The position numbers and the translations under genes are program-made. DNA of 40,643 bases, taken from IMG/VR virus record IMGVR_UViG_3300020411_002770, positions 1-40,643 of that record, one strand, 5' to 3'. The DNA is from a virus. The notes below the pieces were generated by a model that was given only the letters and a program-made list of their open reading frames with translations, did not search any database and was not told where the DNA came from. Positions 19,629-40,643 of this stretch are shown piece by piece; position 1 is the first letter of the stretch; each line of letters opens with the position of its first letter.

Positions 19629-21221
19629 TTAGGTACCATCATAAGATTGTAAGGTAGAATCCATAGTAGATGATGTACTATCGAATCTATTATCAGTGCT
19701 TCCACCATCACCAGCACCAGTTACTGTCAATATTGCTGCTTGTGAATCTAATGGTGAGTTAGAAGCAGGTACTGGTGCACCATTTGGACCAGTTATACGA
19801 CATCTAAAGCGATACCCAGTCATATAGGGTAGTGCAGTTAGAGAATAGGTATCTGCGGTAGCACCTGTGATGACAGCAAATGCGAAACCACCGTCAGTAG
19901 ATCTATACCACTGGTATGATACAGGTCCGTCCTCTGGTATTACTAACTTCTGTATATTGAAGGTAGCAGTTTGACCAGAATTGACAGTAACATTCTGTGG
20001 TTGTAATGTAAATTGTAAAGTTGGAGGGATTGGAGGGTCTCCACCGTCTCCACCATCACCACCAGATGATACAGGTGCTACAGTGAACGTGGTGTCAATA
20101 GTTTCTCTGGTTGTATTACCAATGATATAAGGGAATTTTGTTATATCATTGTCATCAGGGTCTACTGTTAGGAAATATGCGTAGGTTCCAGTGGGATATT
20201 CAGGTGTAAAGCAATATCTACCGTTATGAATATCTAAATCTCCACTACCTTCGACATATTCATAGTCTTCCATGAGTGCACCAGCAGGTGGATTGTCAGA
20301 ATCCGTGCCATAATCGGGTCTACCAGGTGCTTCTTGGTCTTTAATACCGTATTGAGTCCTCATTGTACGAGTACCACTCAAATTATCGAATGGATCATCA
20401 TATCCAAAAGGACCATAGATGGGAAATCCATCAAAACATATGCCAATTATCTTAGAATGACCGTCTGGATGACGAATATTATTACCATTAAACTGGGTAT
20501 TACCATAATAATCGTTATAACTTGCCATTGTTGAATTGGCTTTCCAACAATCTAAGAAATGTGGGTCGTGATAATGGTATTCACCTGATTGTGTAGGGTG
20601 TCCACCACAATTATCTTCTCCAGAATTAACAAAAGGTGCATCTCCAGCAGCAACCCAACTGAATCCAGCAGGAGGATTGAGTCCTGATCCAGCAGAAGGG
20701 TTAAAAATAGCAACTCCATTGCCAGCAATTCCTATGTTCCCCAGTGGAGTTTGAGTTCTTCCGTTTCTGCTATCCCAATACTCATATGTACCATTAACAG
20801 GAGTTATCTCCTGTGTATCCATGATCAAATCTAATCTATCATCTGCTGCCAACCAGCACTCACCAGCAATAGAAGTAAACTCAGTGCCCTTGTAAAGATA
20901 TCTTAAGTGTAATCCATCACTAAACTTAAACATTAAGTGGTCACCAGGTTGAATATTATTCCCAGTGAATACAGTAAGATCTGTTACTGACAATGTTATT
21001 GATCGAATGAATCCATCATGCGTATAGACATTGGAGTCAAACGTCCTAGCAGTGCCAAATGTGCCACCTCTATACAAGAAATCATGATCGAAATCTTGCT
21101 CAGTAGGTACATTAGGGTTGTGATCGTTAGGAAACGTGCCATGAGCCACTGGCGATGGTAATCCATTGGATGCCACCGTCAAGACTTTAGTCGCTTCGTT
21201 GTAAGTTGCTGTTGCACTCAT
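19629..21221 (-). CDS. YHYH-domain virion protein with Ig-like domain, 530 aa
   Basis: Residues about 140-355 match the YHYH domain (I recall Pfam PF14240): GEYHYHDPHFLDCW at 213-226, HSKIIGICFDGFPIYGPFGY, NPPAGALMEDYEYVEGSGDL and NGRYCFTPEYPTGTYAYFLT. The biochemical role of this domain is not known to me; the dense His residues (216, 218, 221 and others) could bind metal. A Gly-rich linker (about 375-392) leads to an Ig-like domain at about 395-500 (LQPQNVTVNSGQTATF, VSYQWYRS, GYRFRCRIT), related to the C-terminal domain of the giant protein encoded just upstream. The tail is Ser/Thr-rich. The ATG is 8 bases after the giant gene's stop. YHYH proteins are known among T4-like cyanophage structural genes. 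Role inferred: virion decoration or host contact. Confidence 0.93.
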   Translation of the reverse strand: MSATATYNEATKVLTVASNGLPSPVAHGTFPNDHNPNVPTEQDFDHDFLYRGGTFGTARTFDSNVYTHDGFIRSITLSVTDLTVFTGNNIQPGDHLMFKFSDGLHLRYLYKGTEFTSIAGECWLAADDRLDLIMDTQEITPVNGTYEYWDSRNGRTQTPLGNIGIAGNGVAIFNPSAGSGLNPPAGFSWVAAGDAPFVNSGEDNCGGHPTQSGEYHYHDPHFLDCWKANSTMASYNDYYGNTQFNGNNIRHPDGHSKIIGICFDGFPIYGPFGYDDPFDNLSGTRTMRTQYGIKDQEAPGRPDYGTDSDNPPAGALMEDYEYVEGSGDLDIHNGRYCFTPEYPTGTYAYFLTVDPDDNDITKFPYIIGNTTRETIDTTFTVAPVSSGGDGGDGGDPPIPPTLQFTLQPQNVTVNSGQTATFNIQKLVIPEDGPVSYQWYRSTDGGFAFAVITGATADTYSLTALPYMTGYRFRCRITGPNGAPVPASNSPLDSQAAILTVTGAGDGGSTDNRFDSTSSTMDSTLQSYDGT

Positions 21222-21229
21222 GGAGTTAT

Positions 21230-24200
21230 TTAGATGTCATCAAAGATTTGTGTTGGTAAGAAGTTGCTTAGGACTGTAGCACCAGTCTGGACGCTCAATA
21301 CAGCAGATAGTGAGTAAACTGGAGTTGCACCAGATGCAGTGATCGCAACACGATATTCGTCACTGTCGTCTGCCTGTGTAGTATTTGGAGTATTGTATGT
21401 TGACTGGTTAGCACCAATGATGTTGCTCCATGTCTGTGTGCCATACTCCTTCTTCTGCCACTGATAATTCATTGTCTGATCGTTAGTTACGGTAGAGACA
21501 ACTGTGAATGAAGCAGAGTAACCTTGGTTAACTGTTACGTTAACTGGGTCTTGTGATATGAAGATTGTGCCAGGATCGATATCTCCAGCACCACCTGTGT
21601 ATTCAGATCCTTCGCCAGCGAGTACGTCAAATCCACCGTTAATAGGAGCACCTTCAGGAGTTGTGAAACTATCAGGAACTTCATTATCGATAGCAACTGT
21701 TGGTAATGCGTATCCGATACCAGGAGTCTTAACATCAATTCTAGTAACACCCATCAATGCCTTGATACGAGCGTCAAATCCAGAAGAGGAGATAACGTCA
21801 ACGTTAGGACGTGAAGTATAACCATCACCAGAGTTGGTTAGGTTAGCATTTGTAATCTGTCCAGATGTGATATCAGCGATAGCAGCAGCGTTACGACCCT
21901 TAACAGATCCAGTGTACTCGAATGTGATTAGTGAGTTTGAAGACTCAATTAGAGCAACCTCACGAGCAAATTCTTCACCGTCTATTTCAAGTTTGTCACC
22001 AGCTTCGATTGGTGGGACAACGGTTGCTGCGATAACGTCTGCGTCAGATCCAATGTATGAGAAACCAACGAATGTTGATCCCGCACGTGGGACTTCAGCG
22101 AAGATTAATCGTGAACCAACGATCTCGTATGCGAGTCCAGGTTCCTGTATAACACCGTTAAGTGATACGATAATGTTATTCTCAGGACGGATAACGTTAG
22201 ATGAAACACCTTCAGTTAGAGTCAAGGAGTAGAATAATCCAGATCTCTTAAGGTTGAAGGAAGATCTCAATGAATCAAACTCATAACTGATATCGTCTAA
22301 CTGACGTAATTTACCAACGTAGTAACCAACGAATTGTGATCCGATTACAGGTGGCTCAGCAAACTGAATCTTGTCTGAGAATGCAACGTAAGAGTTGTTA
22401 CCGCCAGGAGGCTGTAGGATACCATTAACGAATGCTAGTAAGTGACCAGCTGGATCTGGGAAGTATGCTTCACCATTAGAGATGGTTAAATCAAACTGTG
22501 TTTGCTGACCATCAAATCCTCTGAAGTATCTGTCAACACGACCTTCGAGTGTGCGAGCAGATGAAACTGCACCACCCCATCCGTAGTCGGAAATGACTGA
22601 CATATTATCAACGAATGCCCCAGAAGCATCTTCTACCCAAATTTCAGCAGTGATACCAACTTGCTCGATTGATACGACCTTAGCGTATGATGAGTAAGTT
22701 GTTGTAGTTACGTTAGTAACGTTAGCATATATGCTTGGGAAGTTAGATCCAAGATCAATCTTACCAATGTTGTTTGTGCCTTGAGTTACAGCATCGATTG
22801 TCTCACCTGTGCCTACTGGAACTACGTTACCAACCCAAAGTTTGTGTATACCGTAGTTAGGATCAGTATTCTCAAGCTCTAATCCATTAATGTATTTTGT
22901 TACAGTTGCTTTGAATCCTGGATTCTTCTCAGTTGTACCTTGTAGGAGTGATACTTCATCACCAACACGGAAGGTATCATTAGTGCCGATATCAACGATT
23001 GCGACTCCAAGATCTAACTCATATACCGCAGTACCATGTATGTACTGGTTAAGTTGAATCTGTGTACCAGTTATACCCTTAACTGAAAGGATGTATGCAG
23101 TAACACTACCGTAGATAACGTCACCAGGATCCCACTGAGCATCAATGGTTTCAACATCAATCGTGATACGACCACCAGTATTACCTGTAAGTGATCCAGA
23201 CTTATTGACATAGTTGTCAATGTATCCTTCAGTATTTGATTCTTTAGAGAAGAACCAATCACCTGAAGCAAATGCACCTCTAGAGACATTAAGTAAGAAT
23301 CTATCAGTTGGGGCACCAGCAGTACCTGTTGCACCAGATGTCTGACCTTCTAATACATCATTCTGAGCTATAGTACCAGCGATAGTTTGTAGTTTAACTA
23401 ATGATGTGCCATCAGTAGACTTCTTAGTCTGCATTACAAAACCAGTATTTGATCCAGCACCTTGGACTTGGACAGTCTCACCATTCAAGAAGACTTCATA
23501 CTCACCACCCTGTGTGGTTGACATACCAGTGATAGGATAATGTGTAAAGATCTTACGGATAGTTGCTTCATTATCCTGAATTCTTCCTATCTCAGACTCA
23601 GCACCTGAAACACTACCGTAGATAACGTCAGCAGGATTGAATCCACCTTGGATTGGAGTATCAGAAGGATCGATAGCATATACTGGAGCGTTACGAGTAA
23701 TACCACTTCTCTGTACAACTGCCATGATTTGTGATCCAGAATTACTTGTATCAACTTGTAATACTCTGAATCTTCCATCGTGGATGTAAGAAGCACCAAT
23801 TTCAAACCACTCAGCAGTAGCAGTCAAACAATAGAAATAAGGTTGACCTGTCAATCCACTTAGGGATGTATCAGATGCAGGGATGTAACTTAATACATCA
23901 CCACGTCTGAAGTTGTTAGCACGATTAATTCTAATTCTATATTCAGCACGGTCAAATCCAACTTCAACTTCAGGAGTTAGTGTAACCAATGCAGGGTCAG
24001 TATTGTAATCCCAACCTACCTCATACTTGGTAACTCTGTTAACAGCATCAGTAGATGCAACGAATGTAACTCTTGCTTCTGTTGGGAAGGATGATCTTTC
24101 TAGAGCAAACTCAATTGGGTTAAGTGAAGAGTCAATTATAAACTCAACTGCTTCCTGATTCCACTCAAGTCTTCCAGCTGGTTGCCATACGTCATAGTTG

Positions 24201-27200
24201 TCCCAAACACTATCAGTACCAACAAGATACATGATACTCTTAATGTATTCTCTACATCTGGTTAGAGCAAATAGGATCTGAGATCTAACAACATCTTGGA
24301 ATGCAATGAAATTACCTTCACCATCAAACCAGTCTTGTGTCATTCTGAATGATCCAGCATTACCACCTGTAATCAAGTCATAACGGACTGCCTTAAGGAC
24401 ATCATTACAGAAGTCAATAGTTAAGTTAGTAGATGGGTAACTTGCTAGTGTATCTGAGAATGCTCTTCCAGCAATTGCTTGCTGATTGAAGAGAATCATG
24501 TTAGCGATAATCTTATTATTATATGTGCCAGCACCTAGAGTGGTTGACATACTATCGAATAATGTATCGATAGCAGACTGGACGTTATAACATGTACCTG
24601 ACTGGTATACGGTATTGGTATATGCAGATGGGAATGTCTTAGTTACACTGTTAACAAGATAGTTTTGATTGTTATTTGCTGCTTGAGATATAGTGTTGAT
24701 GTATATGTCAGCAAGTGTATTAATTGCAGAAGCAGTTTCATTACATGTGCCAACCCAGTTACCATTAGCATCTTGACCACCACCAGATACATCGTATGTA
24801 ATTGTTAGATCTCTAGCAACTACATCTGGAGTGTACTTGACGGGCCATACAGTTGGTAGTGTGTAACTTCTGTTTGCAATATTACTTGGGTTAGTAAATG
24901 CATCAGTTGCAAAGTTAACAAGAGTAGTAAGTTCGTTTTCTACATTTAGAGATTCATTTCCAGTGTATGCAGGATCAACTAGACGTGATCTATAGTAATC
25001 TAGATCAGATCTTGTAGGCCATGCCCATGACTTAACATGCTGTACTGGTAGTTTCTGACCATCAGCATAGTCTGTAACACGTGGATATGTGTGGTTAGTC
25101 TGGTTGCTATCCTGTGAGCATGTAAAGGTTAATGAATTGCTATCAATGATAACAGCATCATCAGTACCAAGAGTATGATTTGCAACAGTTAGAGTTAACT
25201 GACCACTTGTAGGCTCATAGTATGCGTCTGTAGGTGTTAATTGTGTACCATCATTGGCAACAGTAATACAGTTGGATAGAGCAGATACGAAAGTATGTCT
25301 ATAATTACCACCCTGTATTAACGCACCAGCATTAGCACTTACAAATGTATGCTGATATGTATTTCCAGCTGGTGACTTACCAACGTTAATAGTAATAGTG
25401 CCGTCTTGTTTCTTAAGACCCTTCTTCTTAGCAGATACGAATGTATGAGTACCAAGGAATGTAGAAGGAATCATATTGAATCCTAATACACCAACATCGA
25501 ATGTTGAGGTAGATACATTATGTACTGGTAACCACTGGTTACTTGCATGATCAGTAGGTCTTGGATATGTGTGAGGAGTTTCATCCTTATCCAGATCACA
25601 TGTAAATGCCAATGAGAAGTCATCAAACATTACATAATCATTTGCCTTAACAACTCCATTAGTATCAGCAGATACGAATGTGTGACGATAACTACCACCA
25701 CCTATTACAGCACCAGCAAGAGCACTTACGAATGTATGATCGTATAGATCAGCAGTAGCAGCAACATCTACATCAACAGTAATCTTACCAGACTGTCTAT
25801 GTAAACCGTTATGCTTCGCATCAGCAAATGTATGTGTGTAGTTACCACCAACGGTAACACCGTTTGTAGCAGCAGAGTGGAATGTATGAGTATACTCACC
25901 ACCAACAGTAACAATAGATCTCTGGACGTTAGATGCGTTAGCAGAAACAAATGTATGGACTGTTGTATTTGTAGAAGGAATGTCTGTTAATACTTGGACA
26001 TCGAATAGATCACAATTAACATTAGAGATCTTCAACCATCTTCCACTTGAAGGATCAGTAGATCTTGGATATGAATGATTAGTAACGTTGTTATCCTTAC
26101 CACATGTGAAGGTTAATGAATTGTCTGCAATCTTAACATACTCACCGTTAATGAATCCATTGCCCACTAGGATACCGTTTGCAGTAGCAGACTGGAATAC
26201 ATGAGCAGTAGTATCTGTGATAGCACCTTGACCACCGTTAACGTTAACAGTAATTGTTGTGCCAGATACAGCAGTGATGTCTAACTCTTGATTATATGCA
26301 TAATCAGCACCAGATGTTGTGGCAGCACCAGCAGCACGTGGATATGTCTTAGTAGTTACGTTTCCATCTCCACCATAATCACAAGTGAATGTTAGTGAGT
26401 TAGGTAACAATCTGATAGTATCATCAGTAGTCAGAGTATGTGCTCCGATTGTTAATTCTAAAGTACCAGATGTTGGGTTGTATGCAGCACCCGTAGCAGT
26501 CTTCTTATCTTTAGGTACAGAGAGTGTCATGAATCCAGTAGCAGGATTGTATGATGCAGTCTCTGTGGAGTATGTGTTATTAGCGTTTTGGAATACGTGA
26601 GTTGTAGTGTTAGAAGATGTACCAACATCAACTGTAATACCATCAGCAGTAACAGCAGTAATCTCAACTCTATTATTATATGCAGGGTCATTGCCTGTAG
26701 CACCACCCCATCCTGTAGGACGTGGATACCAGTGATCAGAATTTTGTGAATCTTGATCACAACGGAAGACCATTGATTTGTTTGCAATCTTAACGTAGTT
26801 ACCAACCTTAAGTTGATGGGTACCGATGGTCATTGTTAGAAGACCAGTATTAGGTACGTAAGATGCAGCACTTACTCCATAACCTTTAGCATGTGATTCT
26901 CCAACATCAAGTTTGATTGTTGAATTCTCCATCATGATGCCACCATCAGCAGCACTTACAAATGTGTGTGCATAAGATCCACCACCCTTAACTACACCTC
27001 TAATAATTGCACCTGTTGCAGCAGATTGGAAGTTATGAGTTGTTGTGTTAGATGATGTACCAACGTTAACTGAGAAGGAATTAGCATCAACATAAGTAAC
27101 ACTTAACCATGCATTATTAGATGCAGGATCTTGCTTTCTAGGATATGCATGATCGCTTCCAAAACTATCTTGCTGACATCTGAATACGATAGACTCATCC

Positions 27201-30200
27201 TTAATTTGAATCTTATCTCCAGTAACAAATGGATGACCAGCAACTGTCAATACCAACTCACCAGATCCAGGTGTGAATGTTGCACCTGTAGGTGTGAATG
27301 CATTTACAGATCTTACAAATGTATGCTGAGAAGTATTAGAAGAAATACCAACATTAACTACAACGCTATCAGCAGTAACTGATTGAATTGGAATAGAAGT
27401 ATCATAATATGGATCATCAGCAGTAGCACCACCTTGACCATTTGCACGAGGATAGAAGTGCTCAGTTGCGTTATTATCTAAAAGACACTTGAATACTAAT
27501 GACTGATTTTCAATCCACAATGATTCATGTGCAACCTTAAGTCCATTAGGAGCAGCAGTTACAAATGTATGTGCATATCCACCACCAGAAATTACAGCAC
27601 CAGCAGCAGTACCACCAGCCCAGTTGTGTGTAGTTTCATCAGTGATTGCTCCCTGATTTCCGTTAACGTTAACTGTGATTGTTGTAGCAGTCTTAGCAGT
27701 AATTGGTAGGGCAGTATCATATGCATAGTCCTTACCATTTGCGGTAGAAGCACCAGATGATCTTGGATATGTCTTCTGAGTTGTGTTACCATCACCATTG
27801 AAATCACAAGTGAATGTTAATGAATTAGGTTTGATCTTAATGCTATCACCAACATCTAATGTATGAGATCCAATGGTAAGTTCCATGTTACCTGATGTTG
27901 GATTATAATTAGCAGCCGTTACGTTATGTGTAGACTGAGGTGAAGTACCTACATTGACTTTAAATGTATCATAAGTGACATCACTGATTGGCATCCACTG
28001 ATTAAACTGAGGATCAGTTGTTCTAGGATAAGTCTTAGTGGATGTATTTCCATCCATTCCACAAGTGAATGATAATGAATCTTGAGCAATCTTAACTCTG
28101 TCACCAATAGTGAATCCATGAGCAGGAATTGTTACAAGTAAAGTACCAGCAATAGGATCGTAATCTGCATTAGTAATAGTATGAGTGGATCCACCTTTAT
28201 AACCATGTGGTCCAATCTTGAGTGTCATATCACCTGTAGTAGGCTCATATGTTGCATCAGAAACAAGATAATTAGCACGAGTTGTAGTACCGATCTGGAC
28301 GTTAAAGTTGTTACCAGCAACACCAGATACTTCTAACCACTTATCATATGCAGGATCAATTCCTTCACGAGGATAAGAATGATTAGTAGCATTGCCATCC
28401 ATATCACAAGACATTGTGAGTGAGTTTGGCTTCAACTTAATTCTATTACCATTACTGAATGGATTATTCAATACTGTTAATGTTAATACACCAGTCTCGG
28501 CATTATATGTTGCACCAGATGCTGTGTATTCTGCATGTCCTACATCCTTAATTTCTATAGAATGATCGTATGCTCTATCTCTCTTATGAGTTACACCACC
28601 ACCAACAGCAGAAACAAATGTATGACTGAATGATCCACCTTTTCTGATTGTACCTCTTAAGATTGAATTAACCTTAGCAGTTACAAATGTATGTGTGGAA
28701 GTATTTGTAGAAGGTACCTTATCAAGTACTTGGACTCTAAATGTATCTTGAGTTACATTAGAAATTGTTAACCACTTACCAGATGCAGGATCACCATGTC
28801 TAGGATAAGCATGCTCAGTTGCATGGTCATCTTTAGCACATGTGAAGATCAATGCATTATCTTCAATCAATACTTGCTCACCATCTAACATTCCATGATC
28901 AGGAATTGTGATGGTCATAACACCAGATGCACCACTATAAGTTACATTGGTTGGTGTCTTACCTACAGCAGGTTTGAAGATATGAGCATGATTAGAAGAT
29001 CCACTAGGTGAAGAATTAACGTTAACAGTTATAGTGCTATCATCAACAGCAGTAACATTAACAGCATCACGGAATGCAGGATCGTCAGCAGTTGCACCAC
29101 CAACACCATTTGCTCTTGGATATGTGTGGTCAGATCCATGACCATCTTGAGCACATGTAAATGTCATTGAGTACTCATTGATATAGATGCTATCGTTAAC
29201 TTCTATACCATGATCAGGACCAACAGTAATTACCATATTACCGTTAGAAGCATTATATTCTACATTCTGAGGATCGAAACTTACAAACTCAGACTTACCA
29301 ACAAAAATGTCAATAGTGTTTTCAGTTGCATTCTCTACAGGCTTCCACTTACCACTAATAGGATCAGAAGATCTTGGATATGTCTTAGTTGATGTATTAC
29401 CATCCATTGTGCAATTCAATGACAATGCATTGTCTGCAATCTTAATAAGAGATCCATTATCCATTCCATGATTAGTAATAGTAAGAGTTAGATAACCTGT
29501 CTCACCATTGAAATCTGCACCTGTAGGTGTGAATGAATCAATAGTTGTTCTTGGATAAGCATGTTGTGATCCATTCTGATCCATATCACATGTAAATGTG
29601 ACAGCACCATCAGCAAGTTTTACATGCTGACCTTGCTTCAATGAATGAGGACCAATATTAAGCTCAAGATGTCCTGTGTAAGGATCATAAGAAGCATCAG
29701 TAGGTGTGAATTGTGAAGCAGCAGTTGTGCCAACATTAAGCTCAAATGTATCTTGAGTTACGTTTTCAATTTGTATCCACTTACCACTGATAGGATCTGT
29801 ACCTCTAGGATATGCATGATCGGATGAATTATCATCCATTGTGCAATTCATATGAAGAGCATAATCATCTAACTTGATGAAGTCACCATTAGAGAATCCA
29901 TGCTTACTAACTGTTAGTGCCAATACACCTGTTGAAGGAGTATAAGTTGCTCCACTTGGAGTATGTCTTGTTACACCATCATCAATAATTCTTAGAGACT
30001 CATTGTATGCAGGATCAGTAATTCTAGGATATGTGTGCTCAGTAGAATTACCATCTTTAGAGCATGTGAATGTTAGAGAATTAGCAGCAATCTTAATGCT
30101 ATCGTTACCCTTCATCATTGTTGCAACAGTAATACTCTTAGGTACTGCTGATACAAATGTATGAGTAGAAGTGTTAGAAGAAGGTATGTTGAATAATACT

Positions 30201-33200: not shown

Positions 33201-36200
33201 AAGTTAGATCCTGAAGATCTAGGATATGGGTGTAGTGACTGATGAGCATCTAAGAAACAAGTAAATGTTAGAGACTCTTTTGCAAATCTTATGCTCTGAC
33301 CATTACGAAGATTGTGATCACCAATAGTGATCTTCATGTGTCCTGTTACAGGAGTAAATTCAGCAGCAGTAACTAAGAATGGAATTTCAGGTGTGCGTCC
33401 AACAAAGACATCAAACTCATCTTTAGATACATTCCTAATATCCATCCACTTATCACTCATTGGATCAGTAGAACGAGGATATGCATGGACTGTAGCATTG
33501 TTGTCCATTGAGCAAGTGAAACTTACTCCACCATCAGCAACCTTAACGAAGTCTCCAGCAGAGAATCCGTGGTCAGCAATCCTCAATCTCATTAATCCCT
33601 TCTTACCATCATATGATGCAGTGGATATACTATGAACTGAAGACTGACGAAGAGTTGTTTTTCTATCTGTTGTTAATACTAACTTACCATCAGCAGGAGT
33701 AAATGTAGCACCACTTACATCATATTGTTGCTCAGGTGTCTTACCTACGTTAACAACAATAGTGTCATTGGTAACTCCAACAATAGGTGTTGGCTCATTG
33801 TGTATTGGGTCAACGTGACGAGGATATGCATGGACAGAAGCATGATCATCCATTGCACAAGTAAATGCTAATGATTGAGATGCAATCTTAATGTTAGTAC
33901 CTACTGCCAAACCATGACCAGATCCAACTGTCAATTCTAATTGACCAGTAGTAGAGTTAAATGTAGCAGCAGTTGGATTCCAACCTACAGTTGGAGACTC
34001 TCCAACATTAACAGTAAATGTGCCACCAGGAATATCAGATTCAACAACATCTAACCACTTACCACTGCAAGGATCAGTAGATCTTGGATATACATGCTCA
34101 CTATAATAGTTGTCCATGGAGCATGTGAATGTCATGGAGTTATCAAAGATTTGTATCTGCTCACCCTTAGTGATCTTATGACCAGGAACTGTCAGAGTAA
34201 GTAGACCCTTAGTAGCAACATATTCTGCATGAGATGCAACGTGCATATCTGCACCAACAAATCTATGTTGACCGATATCTAATTCTAATTCACCATCATT
34301 CTGATTATAAGTTGCATCAGATACGTTATATTCAATCTTAGGTGTCTGACCAACGTTAACAGTGAAACTATTTGTAGTTACTGCTTCTACTAACATCCAA
34401 GCATCACCAGCAGGATCCTTTGCTCTAGGATATCCATGCTTAGTAGAATGATTATCTTGAGCACAAGTGAATATTATAGATCCATTCTTGATTTGTATTT
34501 GATCACCAGTTTGGAATCCATGTGCAGCAGACTGACATACTAATAATCCAGTATCAGGATCATATGTAGCATCAGATATAGTATGCATTGTAGAGTCAGT
34601 CATACCATGGTTAGGTAGAGTGATTGACATACTACCATTTTCAGGATTGTATGATGCATCCTCTACAGTATGAGCTGTTGCTCCAACTGCGATAACTTCT
34701 ACAGCAGCATTACCAGCTGGGTCACCAGATCTAGGATAAGAATGAGTTGAAGCATTATTATCTTGATCACATGTAAAGTTTATAGAGTTAGTTGCAAGTG
34801 ATAAGAAAGTACCAACAGTATGATTATGTGATCCAATATTGATCACCATATCTCCATTACTACTATCATAAGCAGCATGTGAAATATCATATGCAATCTT
34901 AGGTGCAGGACCAACATTAACTGTAAAGGTGTTAATAGCAGCAGACTCACCAGCAACTAGAGATCCACCACCAATAGCATATCCAGCGAAGTTAGAAGAA
35001 GCGAATATTCCACCGCCACCTGTCAAACCAGTATAGTTTGCACCAGGAGTTGTTGCTTCACCAACAGGTGTGCCATCAATCCAAAGTTTTACTCTACCAC
35101 TACCAGTACCTAAGTTACCACCAATACGAATCTCCCATACTAATTCATGGTCACCATCATCAAAGTATGTTGATAAGTTACTGATTTGTAAGTCAAGCAT
35201 TGCAAGACCATTATCATTATGGTTTGCACCACCACTGTAACTATTGGTACCATCACCAGCACGGAGTCTTAAATATGTGCCATTATCTCTAATACCAAAC
35301 CATGTTCCTGAAGTAGAATCACCTGCTTCAAATAAACAACAATCTATTGGGTTAGAAGGTAGTTTTGTAACACAACGGAATACTGCATCTTCATCAGTTA
35401 CAATTCCAGTGCCACTATCAGTTGTAGAAATCTTATCTTCACCAGCAATGAATGATCTAGTTACAAGACTATTAGGTTGTCCAACAATAATACCTGTATC
35501 AGCAATAGAATTGAATAGTGAATTATTAGGTCTTGGGACAGCATCATAGAATCTTTGATCAACATTATGACCAGCAGCATTAGTAATAACCTGACCCTTC
35601 ATGGCACGAATGGCATATTCTTTTGCCTTATTCATGATCCAGATGGTCTCAGTAGATTGAGCAGCAACGTGATCTAAAGCACCATTATAGGTTGTATAGA
35701 ATTCAGCAGCATACTGCATCCAGTTGTTACCACCATACTTAAGGTTAAACGCTAATGATCTAAGAATATCAGTAACGTCATGGACACAGTTAGCTGGACC
35801 TCCAGGAATTAGGAGATTCGGGAATTGTACAAGTCCCGCAGCAACCGCTTGCTCCGCAATATAGCGTATATTTCCATCAATAGCATCTCCACATTTTTGA
35901 TACATCACTTCACGTGGGTTTTGCTCATATGATTGTACTGGTGTTGTTTGTAAATCAGTACCTTCAATGTAGTCTCTACCGAATGCATTACGCATGGTAA
36001 GAGTCATGATATCTCTTAATATCTTAACTACAGTTATAGATGCTTCCCACTCACCCTCAATATGCTTAAGGGAATTATTTTCTGTCTCAACATATAATGC
36101 AGCAGCATCATATGTCTTCTCGTTACAATCAAAGCGAAGGTCATGAACCGCTGCCTCGATCATATCAAGTACGTCATCCTCACAGTTAACTGGACCTCCA

Positions 36201-39200
36201 GGAATCTGTAGATTTTCATACTTAGACAAGTCATTCATAATTGCTACGCATTCTTTAGCAATTATTCTTCTATTATTCCAAATAACATCAGCAGCGTCAA
36301 GGTATCTGTCGTTAGAGTTTCTACCAGTTGGACCTTGAGGATATGCTTCAGTATCAAGTACTATATTCTCATCTCTATATGCTGCTCTTGCAGTGTATAA
36401 AGGACTATAATATTCTTCCTGAATATATGAAGGAGCAATAGCACCTAACTCAGAAGCAGCTTCACCTGAAGATAACAATAAGTTGTTGATTGCCTTTAAG
36501 CAAAGAAGTTTAGTATGCTCAAATGCATCAAGCATTGGATTAAGCTCAGATTCAACATGAATCACATTTTGCTGACTATCAAGATACTTATCAATAACTG
36601 CTTCAGTCTGATATGTGCCACCTGTAGCAAGGTCAGCAATTACAGCAGGAAGTATAAAGTCCTTGATATCTCTTTCACAATATGGCTGACCATATCCAGG
36701 CATCTCTAGGAAGTCATATACGGTGCCATCGATATCTTTCTCATACTTATTCTGAATAAATCCAGCAACCTCTTCTGCGATATAATCTCTATTCTTCCAA
36801 AGTTGATAACCACCTTCTCTGAATCTCTGATCCATAGGAGCAACAACCTTAAGTAAATTACTACCTAAGAGGTTAATCTCATCAGTTGTATTAGATGAAG
36901 CAGGTGATGCAAAATTATTAGGTATTCTCAACCTAGTACTATATTCTCCATTAAGATCAGTAGATGTGGTTGTAACAACATCTATACAGATCTTGAATAC
37001 TTCATTCCATGTATAGAGAGATTGTAGAATCTCAGCAGCGATGTGATCTAACTTACCACTAGCAGTTAAGTAAGTTCTTGCTGTGTAGATTGTATGGAAG
37101 TCTCCACCTTCTTGAAGGTCTTTAATAAGTGCTCCAAGGATGTAATCCTTTGTATCTCTTATACAAAGGTTAGTACCACCATATACATTATTGCCAGGAT
37201 CATCACCACGAATAGTAAAGTCTGGGAATGCAACCTTCATTCTACCGACTGCTTCTTCAGCAATCCAAGCAGCGTTAAGGTCGATAATTTCAGCACATCT
37301 CTTCTGCTCTGCTCTACCAGTATCAACGTCTTCTACAATAATATCTCTTTCTGCATAATCAATAGACTTGGCAGTTGCAGATGAAGAATTCTGACCACAG
37401 AATGTAGCATAGGTATCAGTAGTTGAGCATACAAATGGTGCTTCACCATTTAGACCAAATACAATCTTTTCATCAGTATAATCAAGTGTATTAGGTGAAG
37501 TGAAGTTTGCTTGACGATCACCTACTCCTTTTTTAATTACGAAATTATCAATATGACCAGCCCAACTATTTGCTAAGTTAAAGTCTGCTCCAATATATGC
37601 ACCACCATATAGGTAATCATTAGTGTCAACGTAGTTAGATCCAACTTGTGATCCATTTACATATGCCTGAGTAACACCACTTGTCCTACAGACTGAAATA
37701 TGATACCAAGTACCTGTGGTAGCAAATACATCTGTACTAAGGATAGTATTGGTCGTGCCGTTATATACCTTTAATTTCTGTCCATCCATCAAGATATTCA
37801 AACCTTGAGCAGCAGTTAGTCTTCTGAAGTCTACAAGTACTTGTGTGCCGACATTAGAAGCAGGACGGATCCAACCTTCAATTGTGAAGTCTCCAAGTCC
37901 AAATTCAAAGTCTTTACTCTCTGTAGCAACTATATGACCGTTAGTTGGAATATAGATGGATTTTTCTCCTTCTAATTCAGCTTTCTTGATTATTACACTT
38001 TGAGAGCAATTTGTGTTTGTGAGAGTTGAGTTAGTAAGATATTCTCCATTTTGGAAGGTACCAGTAATTGGTCCTGCAAATAACCACTTAAGACCAGAAT
38101 TAACTCCAACTGCACTGAATACTGCACCAGAAGTGATACCTTTGATTTGATCGTTAGTTATGAATAATCCAGTTGACTTATCCTTATATGCAAGTTTTGT
38201 AGTCCTTACAGTCTCATTAGCAACGAATGTGCCGTCAGAAACAAGTGCAAGAGCATTAACGTTGGTTAGGTTACCAGCAGTCATTGCAGTTGTTGCAATA
38301 CCACTTAGAGTGTCAATATAAGATTTAACGTTAGCACAGTTGTTAACATCCTGATTATTACCAGATGCATAGTTTGCATCGTAAGTATTAGCAGGAGCAA
38401 CACCACCAGAGTAAGTAGTGGGATCATTAAGGTTATAACCAGGAGTATTGAGTTCCTTCCAATACATTAGGTTATTGATCGCTGAATACATCAACGTCCT
38501 TGCAGAGTTAAATGCCCAAACTGCTTCTGCTTCTTCACCAACAATACCGTTAGTTAGAGGGACACCAGCATCATCGAAGAATTTTTTAGTAAATTCAACG
38601 GTATTATAGTTACCACCAGATCCTACATCTTCAGCAATAGCATCGATGAAGTATCCAAGGTCACGACGACATTTCTCTTGATGAGGTGAATATGTACCTT
38701 CTTGCTCATCAGGTAGCTCAGTTAGAGAAGAAATATTTAATGCTTCGTCGATGAACTCCCAGAGTGTTGAAAGTGCCGATTGTACATCTGAGCAGTTCTC
38801 AGAATCAGTATTAGAGGTATTAGAGCCAGCAGTTCCATAAGGATCATTAGGTGATGGGTCAGCAGTAATTGTAAGGTCTTGATACGCAACCCAAGAGTCA
38901 CCAGAGTTTACAGCATTAATTGTGCCTGAATAACCGTTAGCAAGAGCAACTAAACAACGATCTTTAGCCTTTTCGTATGCAAAGCGAGTTTCGGCCGCTT
39001 GGGCATTAACGTAGGTTAAATTACCGTTACTATCGAAGAATTGTTGGATAAACTTACGAGCATAACGATTACCACCTGCATACATGTCAATAGTGATTGC
39101 ATCGATGAATAATCCGATATCTCTCTTACATTTGTCATCTGAAGGAATAGAAGATGAAGGATACTGAGTCTTCATGTCATCGAATGCCATTCCGATGATT

Positions 39201-40643
39201 AATGCTCTATTCTTCTGAATTAACCTGTATGCGTCCTTAAAGCGACTCCATGGGTTAGTAATAACGTCAGATGGGAAATAGTAGTCTTCAAACTGTATTG
39301 CAATACTTGCTTCAGCAAAATCAATGATTTCTTGCTTATTATTGGAAATATTGCGTTTTCCATCTAAGAATCTGTTTGCAGCGATTCCATGATAAGCAGA
39401 AACTGGATTTCCGTAAATAACCTTCTTATTTCGGATAATTTCGCCTTCTGCAAGAGTACCACCAGTAAGTTGAGAATATGTAATCTCAGTAGTCCTTACT
39501 TCTTCAAAATCAAGGAAATCAGCATTAATTCTGTTTGCAGAATCGTAAAGCTTAGTAGGAGTAATAGATGATTGTGAAATGTCGTCTAAGATGACATTAG
39601 GGTTAGTTAGACTAACTAAACGCTCAAATAGTAATCCGAAGAAGGTAGATCCTCTGTTAATGATCAATTCATCAACAGGGTCACCAGTTACAGGATCTGT
39701 GTAAGGTGCGATGTATGTAATCTGGCCTGCAATCTTAGATGAGGCAGAATAAATGTATTCGTTGAGTTTAAGGTCAAAGATACCAGTTTCAAACCTAGGA
39801 GTACCTGAAGTCTTACTTACAACGACTCTATCAGTAACAACACCTTGAGGGTCGATATTAGTCTCTTCAATGTAAGCAGTGTCACCATCGAGGTTAGTAA
39901 TTGCTTCTCCAAACTCAAAGATAGTATCTGAGTTGATTAGAGTAACAGATTCTACTAATGCAGCGAATATCTCACCTCTTACAATTTGCTCGTTAAGATC
40001 AAATGTACCACCAGTTACATTGATAACATCTAAGTGGTTAGTACCTGAATCAATAACGGTAGCAACAGTATCAGTAGTCTCACCCTGTATTTGCATACCT
40101 AGGGTTGGGAAGATACCATAGTTTGCAGTACCACCAGATTGGTAAAGTGCAATTCTGTAGATAGGTGTAGGAGTAACTCCTAAGATTCTATAGTTAACTT
40201 TAGAAGGTGGTTTAGGTGGCTCAGCAAATACTAAATTACCACCAACGATTGTGAATGATTCACCAGGAGACTGGATAACACCGTTAAGAGTTATCATCAA
40301 CTGATCTTGTTTAACAATTACCTGCTCACCCTCAACAGTAATTGGGAATTGCTTATCAATACCGTTAAACTGATCTGAGATATCATCAAGTTTCTTAACG
40401 ATAGAAGTTAAGATTTCCTCAGAAGAAGTTAGACGTTTCTTACGGAAAAGAACCTCAGTATTGTTGTAATCAGTATAGATTGGTTGAGCAGCACCGAATG
40501 ATGTAATCTGGTTTACATTACTATAGTTTTGTATGTTAACCTTCTTAGTAAACTCAGTACCAATTCTACGTCCAGATACGTCCTTACCACCAGTAAGTTG
40601 TAACTGACCAAACATATTGAAACCAGCAGGGTGGTTATTTTCT
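21230..40643 (-). CDS. Giant repeat-rich fibre/adhesin-like protein, at least 6461 aa, 5' end possibly outside window
   Basis: One uninterrupted frame of 19.4 kb. The first ATG in the window is at 40615, but the frame stays open to the edge (reading ENNHPAGFN before that Met) and no Shine-Dalgarno sequence precedes it, so the true start may lie outside. Positions below count from 40615. Order: an NGVIQ/FAEPP module (about 110-140); two helical Cys modules (about 496 and 647); a LamG-like domain (880-1055); four more helical modules (about 1151, 1312, 1478, 1607); a second LamG-like region (1710-1895); 31 YPR modules (1900-5200); a seventh helical module (about 5400); VxGxTSGA-type beta modules; two further NGVIQ modules; GxGY repeats; and a C-terminal Ig-like domain (about 6346-6448). 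No signal peptide or catalytic motif is seen. The LamG and Ig-like domains suggest sugar or surface binding. In T4 the gene before 8 is baseplate gene 7, but I see no gp7 similarity. Fibre or adhesin role is inferred. Confidence 0.94.
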   Translation of the reverse strand, partial: ENNHPAGFNMFGQLQLTGGKDVSGRRIGTEFTKKVNIQNYSNVNQITSFGAAQPIYTDYNNTEVLFRKKRLTSSEEILTSIVKKLDDISDQFNGIDKQFPITVEGEQVIVKQDQLMITLNGVIQSPGESFTIVGGNLVFAEPPKPPSKVNYRILGVTPTPIYRIALYQSGGTANYGIFPTLGMQIQGETTDTVATVIDSGTNHLDVINVTGGTFDLNEQIVRGEIFAALVESVTLINSDTIFEFGEAITNLDGDTAYIEETNIDPQGVVTDRVVVSKTSGTPRFETGIFDLKLNEYIYSASSKIAGQITYIAPYTDPVTGDPVDELIINRGSTFFGLLFERLVSLTNPNVILDDISQSSITPTKLYDSANRINADFLDFEEVRTTEITYSQLTGGTLAEGEIIRNKKVIYGNPVSAYHGIAANRFLDGKRNISNNKQEIIDFAEASIAIQFEDYYFPSDVITNPWSRFKDAYRLIQKNRALIIGMAFDDMKTQYPSSSIPSDDKCKRDIGLFIDAITIDMYAGGNRYARKFIQQFFDSNGNLTYVNAQAAETRFAYEKAKDRCLVALANGYSGTINAVNSGDSWVAYQDLTITADPSPNDPYGTAGSNTSNTDSENCSDVQSALSTLWEFIDEALNISSLTELPDEQEGTYSPHQEKCRRDLGYFIDAIAEDVGSGGNYNTVEFTKKFFDDAGVPLTNGIVGEEAEAVWAFNSARTLMYSAINNLMYWKELNTPGYNLNDPTTYSGGVAPANTYDANYASGNNQDVNNCANVKSYIDTLSGIATTAMTAGNLTNVNALALVSDGTFVANETVRTTKLAYKDKSTGLFITNDQIKGITSGAVFSAVGVNSGLKWLFAGPITGTFQNGEYLTNSTLTNTNCSQSVIIKKAELEGEKSIYIPTNGHIVATESKDFEFGLGDFTIEGWIRPASNVGTQVLVDFRRLTAAQGLNILMDGQKLKVYNGTTNTILSTDVFATTGTWYHISVCRTSGVTQAYVNGSQVGSNYVDTNDYLYGGAYIGADFNLANSWAGHIDNFVIKKGVGDRQANFTSPNTLDYTDEKIVFGLNGEAPFVCSTTDTYATFCGQNSSSATAKSIDYAERDIIVEDVDTGRAEQKRCAEIIDLNAAWIAEEAVGRMKVAFPDFTIRGDDPGNNVYGGTNLCIRDTKDYILGALIKDLQEGGDFHTIYTARTYLTASGKLDHIAAEILQSLYTWNEVFKICIDVVTTTSTDLNGEYSTRLRIPNNFASPASSNTTDEINLLGSNLLKVVAPMDQRFREGGYQLWKNRDYIAEEVAGFIQNKYEKDIDGTVYDFLEMPGYGQPYCERDIKDFILPAVIADLATGGTYQTEAVIDKYLDSQQNVIHVESELNPMLDAFEHTKLLCLKAINNLLLSSGEAASELGAIAPSYIQEEYYSPLYTARAAYRDENIVLDTEAYPQGPTGRNSNDRYLDAADVIWNNRRIIAKECVAIMNDLSKYENLQIPGGPVNCEDDVLDMIEAAVHDLRFDCNEKTYDAAALYVETENNSLKHIEGEWEASITVVKILRDIMTLTMRNAFGRDYIEGTDLQTTPVQSYEQNPREVMYQKCGDAIDGNIRYIAEQAVAAGLVQFPNLLIPGGPANCVHDVTDILRSLAFNLKYGGNNWMQYAAEFYTTYNGALDHVAAQSTETIWIMNKAKEYAIRAMKGQVITNAAGHNVDQRFYDAVPRPNNSLFNSIADTGIIVGQPNSLVTRSFIAGEDKISTTDSGTGIVTDEDAVFRCVTKLPSNPIDCCLFEAGDSTSGTWFGIRDNGTYLRLRAGDGTNSYSGGANHNDNGLAMLDLQISNLSTYFDDGDHELVWEIRIGGNLGTGSGRVKLWIDGTPVGEATTPGANYTGLTGGGGIFASSNFAGYAIGGGSLVAGESAAINTFTVNVGPAPKIAYDISHAAYDSSNGDMVINIGSHNHTVGTFLSLATNSINFTCDQDNNASTHSYPRSGDPAGNAAVEVIAVGATAHTVEDASYNPENGSMSITLPNHGMTDSTMHTISDATYDPDTGLLVCQSAAHGFQTGDQIQIKNGSIIFTCAQDNHSTKHGYPRAKDPAGDAWMLVEAVTTNSFTVNVGQTPKIEYNVSDATYNQNDGELELDIGQHRFVGADMHVASHAEYVATKGLLTLTVPGHKITKGEQIQIFDNSMTFTCSMDNYYSEHVYPRSTDPCSGKWLDVVESDIPGGTFTVNVGESPTVGWNPTAATFNSTTGQLELTVGSGHGLAVGTNIKIASQSLAFTCAMDDHASVHAYPRHVDPIHNEPTPIVGVTNDTIVVNVGKTPEQQYDVSGATFTPADGKLVLTTDRKTTLRQSSVHSISTASYDGKKGLMRLRIADHGFSAGDFVKVADGGVSFTCSMDNNATVHAYPRSTDPMSDKWMDIRNVSKDEFDVFVGRTPEIPFLVTAAEFTPVTGHMKITIGDHNLRNGQSIRFAKESLTFTCFLDAHQSLHPYPRSSGSNFSGNGGADPFYNKPCPIIHDGSPLTATTGTSYNPTTGIMSITTDAAHGLSNGDEVKFKEGAVTFTCLEDNNGSNHPYPRATDPYANRWLAVSNVSTYTFDVQVLSYAPSTNTTAHTFVQGTVGGITKKDGTITLDVGQSSDTTDHTFIPHVGFTPESAVYNPTTGILNLTIDGHGFENGDRIKIDNNSLKFTCGFDNHATVHTYPRPSDPFSDNWFEVTNVTTQSFDVQVLVDIPQSNTTLHTFVGCTPNCVHRAAIITGGIYDHTYSTSVANCVRHAGDSVRIKDDGLTFRCAADGNSSNHTYPRSAVTTHTPSHVDYDPNTGHLTFHVANHGFLPYSYVKIADESLSFSCKKDISRHTPTAIDYNPTTGVAELTLGLYHGLTTNDMIQISPESLTFTCDFNGDGYTTQKKYPRATGAATSNGKDYAYNTYLPIDSVSADSVFVNFNGGQGAITDTSTHNFISADSECVTGIIVSAHLYPRATDPVAGKWVQIQDTTANSFNVEVLDVIPSTHVTAHNFLSATNNCITHKKDHFYDSNIPVWEIGETNHTPTDITYNPTEGSMQITVANSFLGPNELTPTMCTFYPTTGILRLTQNGHSVKNGDMMMIRDSVLTFRCDKDSQATDHLYPRPSDPVSGKWLKAFNIGSNTYDLQVGNLYGDSPISNTTTHVCNNIATGAIYHARDFVRFDENAITFTCSKDNNQSNHTYPRRSDPTYRQWLPIRNVSPTGFSVQVGKSAVNDVYDHTFVSVVSNSLHRQNGTVTLDVGNGQITNPTTHTFQSAVSGALVAGGQYAHTFIPGTETYTATDANYLPATGVMTITVPNHGFHDGESIKINNNSLVFTCLQDSNGSDHAYPRSSDPVSGKWITISNCTDDTFDVQVLENIPSTNTTLHTFKSATPNGITRAQVVTGGNYSHKFVAPAQLTPTNVAYNPTTGVMTITSAKHGLQNGGRIKVQDGFVTMTCTQDSNQTNHSYPRKNDPFSDEWMKVSNVTEDTFDVQVLFNIPSSNTSTHTFVSAVPKSITVATMMKGNDSIKIAANSLTFTCSKDGNSTEHTYPRITDPAYNESLRIIDDGVTRHTPSGATYTPSTGVLALTVSKHGFSNGDFIKLDDYALHMNCTMDDNSSDHAYPRGTDPISGKWIQIENVTQDTFELNVGTTAASQFTPTDASYDPYTGHLELNIGPHSLKQGQHVKLADGAVTFTCDMDQNGSQHAYPRTTIDSFTPTGADFNGETGYLTLTITNHGMDNGSLIKIADNALSLNCTMDGNTSTKTYPRSSDPISGKWKPVENATENTIDIFVGKSEFVSFDPQNVEYNASNGNMVITVGPDHGIEVNDSIYINEYSMTFTCAQDGHGSDHTYPRANGVGGATADDPAFRDAVNVTAVDDSTITVNVNSSPSGSSNHAHIFKPAVGKTPTNVTYSGASGVMTITIPDHGMLDGEQVLIEDNALIFTCAKDDHATEHAYPRHGDPASGKWLTISNVTQDTFRVQVLDKVPSTNTSTHTFVTAKVNSILRGTIRKGGSFSHTFVSAVGGGVTHKRDRAYDHSIEIKDVGHAEYTASGATYNAETGVLTLTVLNNPFSNGNRIKLKPNSLTMSCDMDGNATNHSYPREGIDPAYDKWLEVSGVAGNNFNVQIGTTTRANYLVSDATYEPTTGDMTLKIGPHGYKGGSTHTITNADYDPIAGTLLVTIPAHGFTIGDRVKIAQDSLSFTCGMDGNTSTKTYPRTTDPQFNQWMPISDVTYDTFKVNVGTSPQSTHNVTAANYNPTSGNMELTIGSHTLDVGDSIKIKPNSLTFTCDFNGDGNTTQKTYPRSSGASTANGKDYAYDTALPITAKTATTITVNVNGNQGAITDETTHNWAGGTAAGAVISGGGYAHTFVTAAPNGLKVAHESLWIENQSLVFKCLLDNNATEHFYPRANGQGGATADDPYYDTSIPIQSVTADSVVVNVGISSNTSQHTFVRSVNAFTPTGATFTPGSGELVLTVAGHPFVTGDKIQIKDESIVFRCQQDSFGSDHAYPRKQDPASNNAWLSVTYVDANSFSVNVGTSSNTTTHNFQSAATGAIIRGVVKGGGSYAHTFVSAADGGIMMENSTIKLDVGESHAKGYGVSAASYVPNTGLLTMTIGTHQLKVGNYVKIANKSMVFRCDQDSQNSDHWYPRPTGWGGATGNDPAYNNRVEITAVTADGITVDVGTSSNTTTHVFQNANNTYSTETASYNPATGFMTLSVPKDKKTATGAAYNPTSGTLELTIGAHTLTTDDTIRLLPNSLTFTCDYGGDGNVTTKTYPRAAGAATTSGADYAYNQELDITAVSGTTITVNVNGGQGAITDTTAHVFQSATANGILVGNGFINGEYVKIADNSLTFTCGKDNNVTNHSYPRSTDPSSGRWLKISNVNCDLFDVQVLTDIPSTNTTVHTFVSANASNVQRSIVTVGGEYTHTFHSAATNGVTVGGNYTHTFADAKHNGLHRQSGKITVDVDVAATADLYDHTFVSALAGAVIGGGSYRHTFVSADTNGVVKANDYVMFDDFSLAFTCDLDKDETPHTYPRPTDHASNQWLPVHNVSTSTFDVGVLGFNMIPSTFLGTHTFVSAKKKGLKKQDGTITINVGKSPAGNTYQHTFVSANAGALIQGGNYRHTFVSALSNCITVANDGTQLTPTDAYYEPTSGQLTLTVANHTLGTDDAVIIDSNSLTFTCSQDSNQTNHTYPRVTDYADGQKLPVQHVKSWAWPTRSDLDYYRSRLVDPAYTGNESLNVENELTTLVNFATDAFTNPSNIANRSYTLPTVWPVKYTPDVVARDLTITYDVSGGGQDANGNWVGTCNETASAINTLADIYINTISQAANNNQNYLVNSVTKTFPSAYTNTVYQSGTCYNVQSAIDTLFDSMSTTLGAGTYNNKIIANMILFNQQAIAGRAFSDTLASYPSTNLTIDFCNDVLKAVRYDLITGGNAGSFRMTQDWFDGEGNFIAFQDVVRSQILFALTRCREYIKSIMYLVGTDSVWDNYDVWQPAGRLEWNQEAVEFIIDSSLNPIEFALERSSFPTEARVTFVASTDAVNRVTKYEVGWDYNTDPALVTLTPEVEVGFDRAEYRIRINRANNFRRGDVLSYIPASDTSLSGLTGQPYFYCLTATAEWFEIGASYIHDGRFRVLQVDTSNSGSQIMAVVQRSGITRNAPVYAIDPSDTPIQGGFNPADVIYGSVSGAESEIGRIQDNEATIRKIFTHYPITGMSTTQGGEYEVFLNGETVQVQGAGSNTGFVMQTKKSTDGTSLVKLQTIAGTIAQNDVLEGQTSGATGTAGAPTDRFLLNVSRGAFASGDWFFSKESNTEGYIDNYVNKSGSLTGNTGGRITIDVETIDAQWDPGDVIYGSVTAYILSVKGITGTQIQLNQYIHGTAVYELDLGVAIVDIGTNDTFRVGDEVSLLQGTTEKNPGFKATVTKYINGLELENTDPNYGIHKLWVGNVVPVGTGETIDAVTQGTNNIGKIDLGSNFPSIYANVTNVTTTTYSSYAKVVSIEQVGITAEIWVEDASGAFVDNMSVISDYGWGGAVSSARTLEGRVDRYFRGFDGQQTQFDLTISNGEAYFPDPAGHLLAFVNGILQPPGGNNSYVAFSDKIQFAEPPVIGSQFVGYYVGKLRQLDDISYEFDSLRSSFNLKRSGLFYSLTLTEGVSSNVIRPENNIIVSLNGVIQEPGLAYEIVGSRLIFAEVPRAGSTFVGFSYIGSDADVIAATVVPPIEAGDKLEIDGEEFAREVALIESSNSLITFEYTGSVKGRNAAAIADITSGQITNANLTNSGDGYTSRPNVDVISSSGFDARIKALMGVTRIDVKTPGIGYALPTVAIDNEVPDSFTTPEGAPINGGFDVLAGEGSEYTGGAGDIDPGTIFISQDPVNVTVNQGYSASFTVVSTVTNDQTMNYQWQKKEYGTQTWSNIIGANQSTYNTPNTTQADDSDEYRVAITASGATPVYSLSAVLSVQTGATVLSNFLPTQIFDDI
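21270..21585 (-). other. C-terminal Ig-like domain of the giant protein
   Basis: Residues about 6346-6448 contain ISQDPVNVTVNQGYSASFTV, then MNYQWQKK and DDSDEYRVAIT, the usual strand pattern of phage Ig-like domains but without the Cys pair. It resembles the Ig-like domain of the 530-aa protein encoded next (LQPQNVTVNSGQTATF, SYQWYRS). Such domains on phage virions are thought to bind weakly to cell-surface sugars. Confidence 0.75.
25060..34920 (-). repeat. Array of 31 YPR modules in the giant gene
   Basis: Reading the translation I count 31 YPR triplets, the first at residue 1960 and the last at 5177, a mean period of 107 residues (about 322 bases). A full module has: YNPTTGxMTITxxxHGxxxG, then DxIKIxxxSLTFTC, then xxDxxxSxHxYPRSxDP, KWLxIxNVTxDTFxVxVG, and a tail xxHTFVSA. 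Cys, Asp and His in FxCxxDxxxxxHxYPR are nearly constant. Some modules are cut short: one stops after CKKD (about residue 2820), and two run from YPR straight into the next module. Three have an EF-hand-like variant CDFNGDG or CDYGGDG. Function unknown. Confidence 0.9.
25640..25970 (-). repeat. Cluster of short HTF repeats between YPR modules
   Basis: A compact run of about 20- to 35-residue units ending in HTF: GGEYTHTFHSAATNG, GGNYTHTFADAKHNG, DLYDHTFVSALAGA, GGSYRHTFVSADTNG. The same unit appears singly between YPR modules elsewhere in the array (for example GGNYRHTFVSALSN near 25290). This is therefore a second, smaller repeat nested in the larger one, with its own copy-number changes. 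Confidence 0.7.
34930..35490 (-). other. Second, diverged LamG-like domain in the giant protein
   Basis: Residues about 1710-1895 contain AVFRCVTKLPS, CLFEAGDSTSGTWFGIRDNG, YLRLRAGDG, GDHELVWEIRIGG, GRVKLWIDGTPVGE and a Gly-rich end. The strand order resembles a concanavalin-like jelly roll (a WxWEIRI strand and a KLWIDG strand), but the match is weaker than for the first copy. It sits immediately before the first YPR module. Confidence 0.5.
35590..39170 (-). repeat. Six helical Cys/Asp modules in the N-terminal part of the giant protein
   Basis: Each module starts with Cys-x-(R/D/H)-Asp and continues as an amphipathic helix: CKRDIGLFIDAITIDMYAGG, CRRDLGYFIDAIAEDVGSGG, CIRDTKDYILGALIKDLQEG, CERDIKDFILPAVIADLATG, CEDDVLDMIEAAVHDLRFDC, CVHDVTDILRSLAFNLKYGG. 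A second helix of about 40 residues usually follows. A seventh copy (CNDVLKAVRYDLITGGN) lies after the YPR array near 24400. Shorter related helices of the form CxxVxSxIxTL occur near residue 605 (NCSDVQSALSTL), near 760 (NCANVKSYIDTL), and twice just before the seventh copy. Confidence 0.75.
37450..37980 (-). other. LamG/concanavalin-like domain in the giant protein
   Basis: Residues about 880-1055 read as a jelly-roll lectin-like domain: FGLGDFTIEGWIRPAS, LVDFRR, LKVYNGTTN, GTWYHISVCRTSG, AYVNGSQVG, AYIGADFN and WAGHIDNFVIKKGVG. This order (FTIEGWIR, WYHISVCR, YVNG, IDNFVI) is typical of the Laminin_G_3 family, which often binds sugars or cell surfaces. It is inserted between the second and third helical modules. 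Confidence 0.8.

Follow-up and report, generated by a model that had tools for sequence, protein, structure and literature searches.

The slot directly after gene 6, which in T4 holds gene 7, is occupied in several cyanophage isolates by a gene for a far larger protein. This family of giants is already known and annotated: it corresponds to PHROG family phrog_701, and its members in isolates are named "virion structural protein" or "baseplate wedge initiator." The four isolates closest to the locus described here encode giants of 8,573 aa (P-RSM6, YP_007675165.1), 7,351 aa (P-TIM40, YP_009188174.1), 6,737 aa (S-WAM1, YP_009325074.1), and 6,619 aa (S-SZBM1_208, YP_010656691.1), the last two being the "baseplate wedge initiator" entries of GenBank; the more distant P-SSM7 and S-SSM5 encode proteins of 7,124 aa (P-SSM7_090, T4-GC 643) and 6,171 aa (S-SSM5_094, T4-GC 969). 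The giant directly follows gp6 in all six isolates examined, as gene 7 follows gene 6 in T4, the preceding gene being named gp6 in P-TIM40, S-WAM1, S-SSM5, and P-SSM7 and "baseplate wedge subunit" in S-SZBM1 and P-RSM6. Our search of the open-licence full-text literature, by titles and abstract openings, found no paper on the giant gene as such, that is, on its size, its repeat array, or a link to gp7.

Evidence that the protein is part of the virion comes from two relatives, S-SZBM1 and S-SM1; the phage of the present locus is known from sequence. In CsCl-purified S-SZBM1 particles, 71 peptides covered 13.5% of the 6,619-aa S-SZBM1_208 (PMC9146016), and T4-GC969, the cluster label borne by the S-SSM5 gene in the giant's slot, was detected in S-SM1 virions (PMC3037559). 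S-SZBM1 is described as lacking long tail fibers, and S-WAM1, P-RSM6, and P-TIM40 are reported to lack long tail fibers or the related genes or proteins (PMC9146016). The giant bears on how cyanophages reported to be without long tail fibers find their hosts.

The window analyzed here is the whole of IMG/VR record IMGVR_UViG_3300020411_002770, a linear fragment of 40,643 bases, and for that reason no extension was possible inside the record itself. Its minus-strand frame from 40642 to 21230 comprises 6,470 sense codons with no internal stop, the 3′ stop occupying 21230–21232; counted from the first ATG, the ORF (21230..40615, minus strand) encodes 6,461 aa. The frame is truncated only by the contig edge, and the true start lies beyond the window. 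The original prediction of a single phage gene of at least 19.4 kb, unbroken and open at the edge, with a product that may be larger still, is borne out on both counts, and the extension to the right that it proposed as a check could be made through overlapping contigs. Contig 3300020470_000113 (G001, 32 kb) matches the window over 25,495 bp with five mismatches and no gaps and takes the frame to 8,645 codons, where it is still open at that contig's own edge. Contig 3300020411_000301 (L144) is identical to G001 throughout their 5,519-bp overlap and includes the start: an ATG that immediately follows an upstream stop and lies 4 bases beyond a 699-codon ORF, which occupies the place of gp6 in relatives. 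The deduced gene has 10,034 codons (30,105 bp including the stop), a length obtained from overlaps between contigs of different samples and not from one molecule, and encodes a protein of ~1.08 MDa (at 108 Da per residue). The window's first residue aligns to residue 3,565–3,590 in nearly all complete relatives (4,389 in G007 and G008). The features of the locus are collected in Table 1.

Table 1. Features of the giant gene and its neighbors; coordinates and residues are those of the window.
Feature	Window residues	Coordinates	Strand	Evidence and remarks
C-terminal 6,470 codons of giant gene		21230..40642	minus	~residues 3,565-10,034 of deduced 10,034 aa; phrog_701; 5′ end cut
Helical modules, "CxRD..." type	411-800	38243..39412	minus	phrog_4527, phrog_5342; motif at 505, 658
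LamG/pentraxin-like jelly-roll	892-1074	37421..37969	minus	PF13385, E 2.3e-14
Further helical modules	1101-1700	35543..37342	minus	motif at 1160, 1322
Domain X (181 aa)	1725-1905	34928..35470	minus	in 17 of 25 family sequences
Repeat array	1911-5233	24944..34912	minus	31 YPR units, 34 HMM matches, 59-168 residues apart
Conserved C-terminal region	5234-6470	21233..24943	minus	51-69% identity to relatives
Putative Ig-like domain	6362-6437	21332..21559	minus	PF13927 (Ig_3) E 0.011, PF07679 (I-set) E 0.015, below cut-off
530-aa virion structural protein, YHYH domain		19629..21221	minus	PF14240, E 1.3e-34; phrog_25852
494-aa gp9/gp10-like baseplate protein		18120..19604	minus	PF07880, E 6.8e-9; phrog_677
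635-aa baseplate wedge protein, modules common with giant		16211..18118	minus	phrog_22827, phrog_708
gp8 homologue, 511 aa		14641..16176	minus	PF09215, E 2.3e-18
2,240-aa protein, Mtd_N at its start, cut by contig edge		3-6722	minus	PF18454, E 3.6e-13

A chance open frame is ruled out by the length (6,470 codons at ~39% GC), by purifying selection, and by the existence of relatives. Relative to G014, a related IMG/VR contig, dN/dS lies between 0.125 and 0.275 in 13 of 13 blocks of ~500 codons, and relative to a second contig, G013, between 0.13 and 0.40, with the peak in residues 2500–2999. Among 57 related loci checked (from 66, with nine partial-match loci set aside), none has an in-frame stop upstream of the match; downstream, 42 are open to the locus edge and 15 stop 9.4–11.2 kb after the match start, as would be expected where the array is shorter or missing. 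Of 20 related IMG/VR records, 18 were examined (all but G010 and G012); apart from G001, whose 5′ end is cut, each has a complete gene, the 17 lengths being 9,922, 9,914 (three contigs), 9,792, 9,580 (two), 9,560, 9,559, 9,553, 9,461, 8,136, 7,523 (two), 7,295, 7,072, and 6,729 codons. Near-identical records are not independent, and lengths and tree place the 11 contigs of more than 9,400 codons in about eight genotypes. The phrog_701 profile matches G014 residues 7–3570 with its positions 3–3483, and its positions 3481–3738 and 5341–6122 (of 6136) match the N-terminal and C-terminal sides of the window, respectively. The open frame is real and constitutes the last two thirds of a ~30-kb gene for one giant virion protein, a new member of the family and the longest among the sequences compared, the longest of the six isolates having 8,573 residues. 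A gene of 30 kb is also a case for how such a gene is expressed within one infection.

The segment that connects the family to T4 gp7 lies outside the window and was tested in relatives. When a profile built from 15 giants (the region around residue 700) was aligned by hhalign with one of seven T4-type gp7 proteins, 30 residues matched residues 730–759 of T4 gp7 with a probability of 95.5, an E of 1.4e-8, and a score of 68.3; 60 column shuffles scored at most 23.3. A DFYxxKG motif is present at residue 689–706 in all 23 sequences having an N-terminus, P-SSM7 has the exact DFYSTKG of T4, and PF23786 "Baseplate_wedge" falls at the same ~700 spot in six of six giants and in G014, always below cut-off. 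The first 50 residues of the giants align, in the expected order, to the helical domain of gp7 with a score of 20.2, below the shuffle maximum of 24.6, and the C-terminal 1,270 residues gave nothing (best E 0.28). The Pfam domains Gp7_helical, Gp7_5th, and Gp7_6th match T4 gp7 but none of these six giants in their first 800 residues; no Pfam gp7 domain was found in the first 3,570 residues of G014, and a phmmer search of the PDB with its N-terminal 1,400 residues returned no match. T4 gp7 (1,032 aa) is like the giant in its slot and in the DFYSTKG...LFKVLYNEEVEI segment and unlike it in having a tenth of the size, no LamG domain, no array, and no overall sequence similarity. These comparisons support homology to gp7 for a short core of the giant, the 30 matching residues, and stop short of placing the whole protein in the gp7 family. 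The T4 gene 7 position and the gp7-type segment together suggest that the giant is probably a baseplate-wedge protein. What makes a one-to-one correspondence with gp7 less certain is the 615-aa S-SZBM1_205, which bears the annotation "baseplate wedge initiator" too (PMC9146016).

Downstream of the giant, the window encodes in order the 530-aa YHYH protein, the gp9/10-like protein, the 635-aa wedge protein, and gp8; these are followed by a DUF4815 protein of 2,441 aa, a pair of small genes, and the 2,240-aa Mtd_N protein. In the order gp25-gp6-giant-(530 aa)-gp10-like-gp8-DUF4815, the downstream part of the window agrees with P-TIM40, P-RSM6, S-WAM1, and S-SZBM1, and the window's gp8 is 84–86% identical to gp8 of these four phages. 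In these isolates the giant is preceded by gp25 and gp6, or by genes annotated "baseplate wedge subunit" that occupy their places. The upstream order for the window's gene is taken from contig L144 only, where ORFs of 137 and 699 codons are identified by position and size only. A tape-measure protein was set aside in view of the gene's place among the baseplate genes and of the β-rich array. The 2,240-aa protein, which begins with the N-terminal domain of a major tropism determinant, is a rival receptor-binding candidate in the window.

The isolates resemble the window's giant to different degrees. Those of P-RSM6 and P-TIM40 are like it in position, gene order, and repeat family, and their N- and C-terminal regions are colinear with it; they differ in having shorter arrays (20 and 5 repeat HMM matches, respectively), located also at other junctions, and in being ~35–59% identical in the segments compared. 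S-SZBM1 and S-WAM1 have the core in common with the window and, unlike it, have neither the repeat array nor domain X. More distant are S-SSM5_094 and P-SSM7_090, which occupy the same slot, have an N-terminus homologous to the family (~43–46% identity in this part), and have the LamG and C-terminal regions in common, with few repeats in S-SSM5.

Outside the array, the chain is built of helical and β modules. The helical modules at window residues 411–800, predicted as mostly helical by AF2 in support of the original prediction, appear to resemble cyanophage tail-fiber families, and the PHROG "tail fiber" families phrog_5342 and phrog_4527 match both helical modules and repeats of the giant. 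The LamG domain, likewise correctly anticipated, is found in 25 of 25 family sequences compared, the window and G001 included. Its AF2 model (pLDDT mostly ~80–94) aligns by VIA to 4dqa, a putative carbohydrate-binding protein, with Z 19.1 and rmsd 2.3 over 172 residues, a fold that occurs in other roles too. A toxin relation raised by Foldseek (botulinum and tetanus complexes) was dismissed: VIA places the jelly-roll only (model residues ~462–664) and ranks the carbohydrate-binding protein and pentraxins higher, so that the toxin likeness reflects a shared fold. On the helical modules at 1101–1700, Phycobilisome PF00502 gives a borderline match (22.8 bits with a cut-off of 22.2), intriguing in a cyanobacterial phage; it is probably generic helical likeness, and a PDB sequence search with the matching part gave nothing below E 0.38.

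Domain X is present in 17 of 25 family sequences and in none of the six isolates compared; it precedes the array in the window and follows it in G006, G011, and G015. Lectin-like by eye, it was rejected as a second lectin, with no Pfam match and a single PDB sequence match at E 0.79 that is not meaningful. The C-terminal region retains its identity over ~1,240–1,270 residues to S-WAM1, S-SZBM1, G006, G007, G008, G011, G015, and G016. The Ig-like domain of the original prediction can be placed tentatively near the C-terminus, where both Ig families match below cut-off.

The long array that had been predicted is confirmed and extends over ~3,300 residues, with the unit motif CxxDx(4-8)[HK]xYPR. 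The core CxxDx(4-8)[HK]xYPRxxDP is nearly invariant though the units are ~37% identical (median within one protein), and its conserved Cys, Asp, and His are a candidate metal site. The AF2 model of a unit pair (pLDDT 92.4, pTM 0.57) predicts barrel domains, for which Foldseek returned nothing from the PDB below E 0.001. The best VIA match, with Z 6.8 and rmsd 4.5 over 95 residues, is to 2v31, the FCCH half-domain of ubiquitin-activating enzyme; a Z below 8 may mean a common arrangement only, and that no match exceeds 6.8 is not evidence of a new fold. PF16190 (FCCH-like) matches the repeats below cut-off (E 1.6e-5), in agreement with 2v31. A PDB search with the repeat profile gave a best E of 0.0038, to iota-carbonic anhydrase, with no single stretch passing, and was set aside.

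The array varies greatly within the family. The repeat HMM matches 34 times in the window, 31 times in G014, 13 times in P-SSM7, and twice in S-SSM5, and not at all in S-WAM1, S-SZBM1, G016, G007, and G008. In G016 the flanks of the array are adjacent, window residues 1902 and 5205 corresponding to G016 residues 5465 and 5466. The window's array is colinear with that of G014 and largely with that of G013, ordered best matches being 45–94% identical and units 10 and 11 having no ordered counterpart in either; unit order is less well kept in G019, G003, G005, and P-RSM6. Because units are 37% identical within a protein and stand in mostly the same order in G014 and G013, many of the duplications predate the closest lineages. 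A further junction, close to window residue 800, carries repeats in P-TIM40, P-RSM6, G006, G011, and G015. P-RSM6 (14 motif units) and S-WAM1 (none) are sisters with tree support 0.99, and since they differ in this way the array was gained or lost more than once. The array is an optional add-on under purifying selection.

We propose that the gene most likely corresponds, in cyanophages, to T4 gene 7 and encodes a baseplate-wedge protein that has grown about tenfold. Judging from gene order and the gp7-type segment, its N-terminal part would pack into the wedge beside gp6, and the remaining ~9,000 residues would form a chain of β and helical modules that includes a single conserved LamG domain of lectin-like fold. 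This chain would probably project from the baseplate, contact the cyanobacterial surface, and do the work of the separate long tail fibers of T4. In the window's lineage, ~31 small-barrel repeats would have been inserted near the middle, most likely as a spacer or multivalent weak binder that lengthens the reach; related phages live without them. We assign this explanation as a whole a probability of about 0.6. Adhesion is a likely, putative role, given the lectin-like fold and the long tail fibers reported absent in relatives. The stronger version, in which gp7 itself became the fiber, with a single uninterrupted megadalton chain per wedge leading from the core of the baseplate to host-binding lectin and Ig modules and a reach tuned in evolution by gain and loss of repeats at several fixed junctions, is more tentative, and we would hold it somewhat doubtful. 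The original prediction of a giant adhesin rather than an ordinary T4 fiber stands in that the gene is giant, modular, and not an ordinary T4 fiber; a free-standing adhesin is at odds with the T4 gene 7 slot and the gp7-type segment. A span of well over 100 nm is plausible for strung-out modules only: given the general size of such domains, 31 barrels of ~4 nm would add ~120 nm if fully extended.

The giant could instead be purely structural, a scaffold of the baseplate or tail shell whose modules coat or brace the tail, with receptor binding left to other proteins such as the 2,240-aa Mtd_N or the DUF4815 protein. Most of the giant is conserved between genera (~41–70% identity over long segments), which is unusual for a receptor binder, and the Mtd_N match (E 3.6e-13) supplies another candidate in the same window. 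It would be odd, however, for a scaffold to have a lectin-like domain in every family sequence compared and an array that is both optional and variable, and the T4 gp7 position is the cell-facing end of the tail. We consider this reading unlikely. The size of the product would also suit a polyprotein, the 10,034 residues being processed into several virion proteins, and the virion proteomics of S-SZBM1 was peptide-based, without intact mass (PMC9146016). The S-SZBM1 giant is nevertheless listed as one entry of 724 kDa (a database value and not an observed mass), and no regular cleavage pattern is evident, because array units vary in spacing and number between relatives; cleavage therefore appears improbable.

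Least probable of all, to the point of being nearly dismissed, is an assembly artefact, with several strains joined into a chimeric array or frame. In one sample, contigs L143 and L183, whose N-terminal halves clearly differ, both end in the 77 bases with which G001 starts. This junction of strains in the assembly graph hints at strain mosaicism within the gene, so that the exact combination of N- and C-terminal halves may be a mosaic. Against a chimera stand the independent contig identical to the window over 25,495 bp but for 5 bases, the ~eight genotypes (11 contigs) of 9,461–9,922 codons, the repeats carried by isolates, and the low dN/dS along the whole window part of the gene. A collapsed or inflated repeat is likewise held unlikely: the longest exact DNA repeat inside the array is 26 bp, and Tandem Repeats Finder reported no array in this region. 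Misassembly of the array, which had been named beforehand as grounds for discarding the prediction, is not obvious as far as contigs can tell, the array being present without gaps in G001.

A virion protein of such size with an optional array is a test case for the lengthening of a phage baseplate appendage, and the question is testable, since isolates of both kinds are already described, P-RSM6 and P-TIM40 carrying the array and S-WAM1 and S-SZBM1 lacking it. Neighboring baseplate genes also seem to share modules with the giant. Parts of gp8 and of the 635-aa wedge protein are 24–35% identical to its N-terminal half (G014 residues 351–651, 1131–1312, 1438–1558, and 3109–3373), the YHYH domain is common to the 530-aa protein and the giant (52% identity), and window residues 6332–6452 are 32% identical to the C-terminus of the same 530-aa protein.
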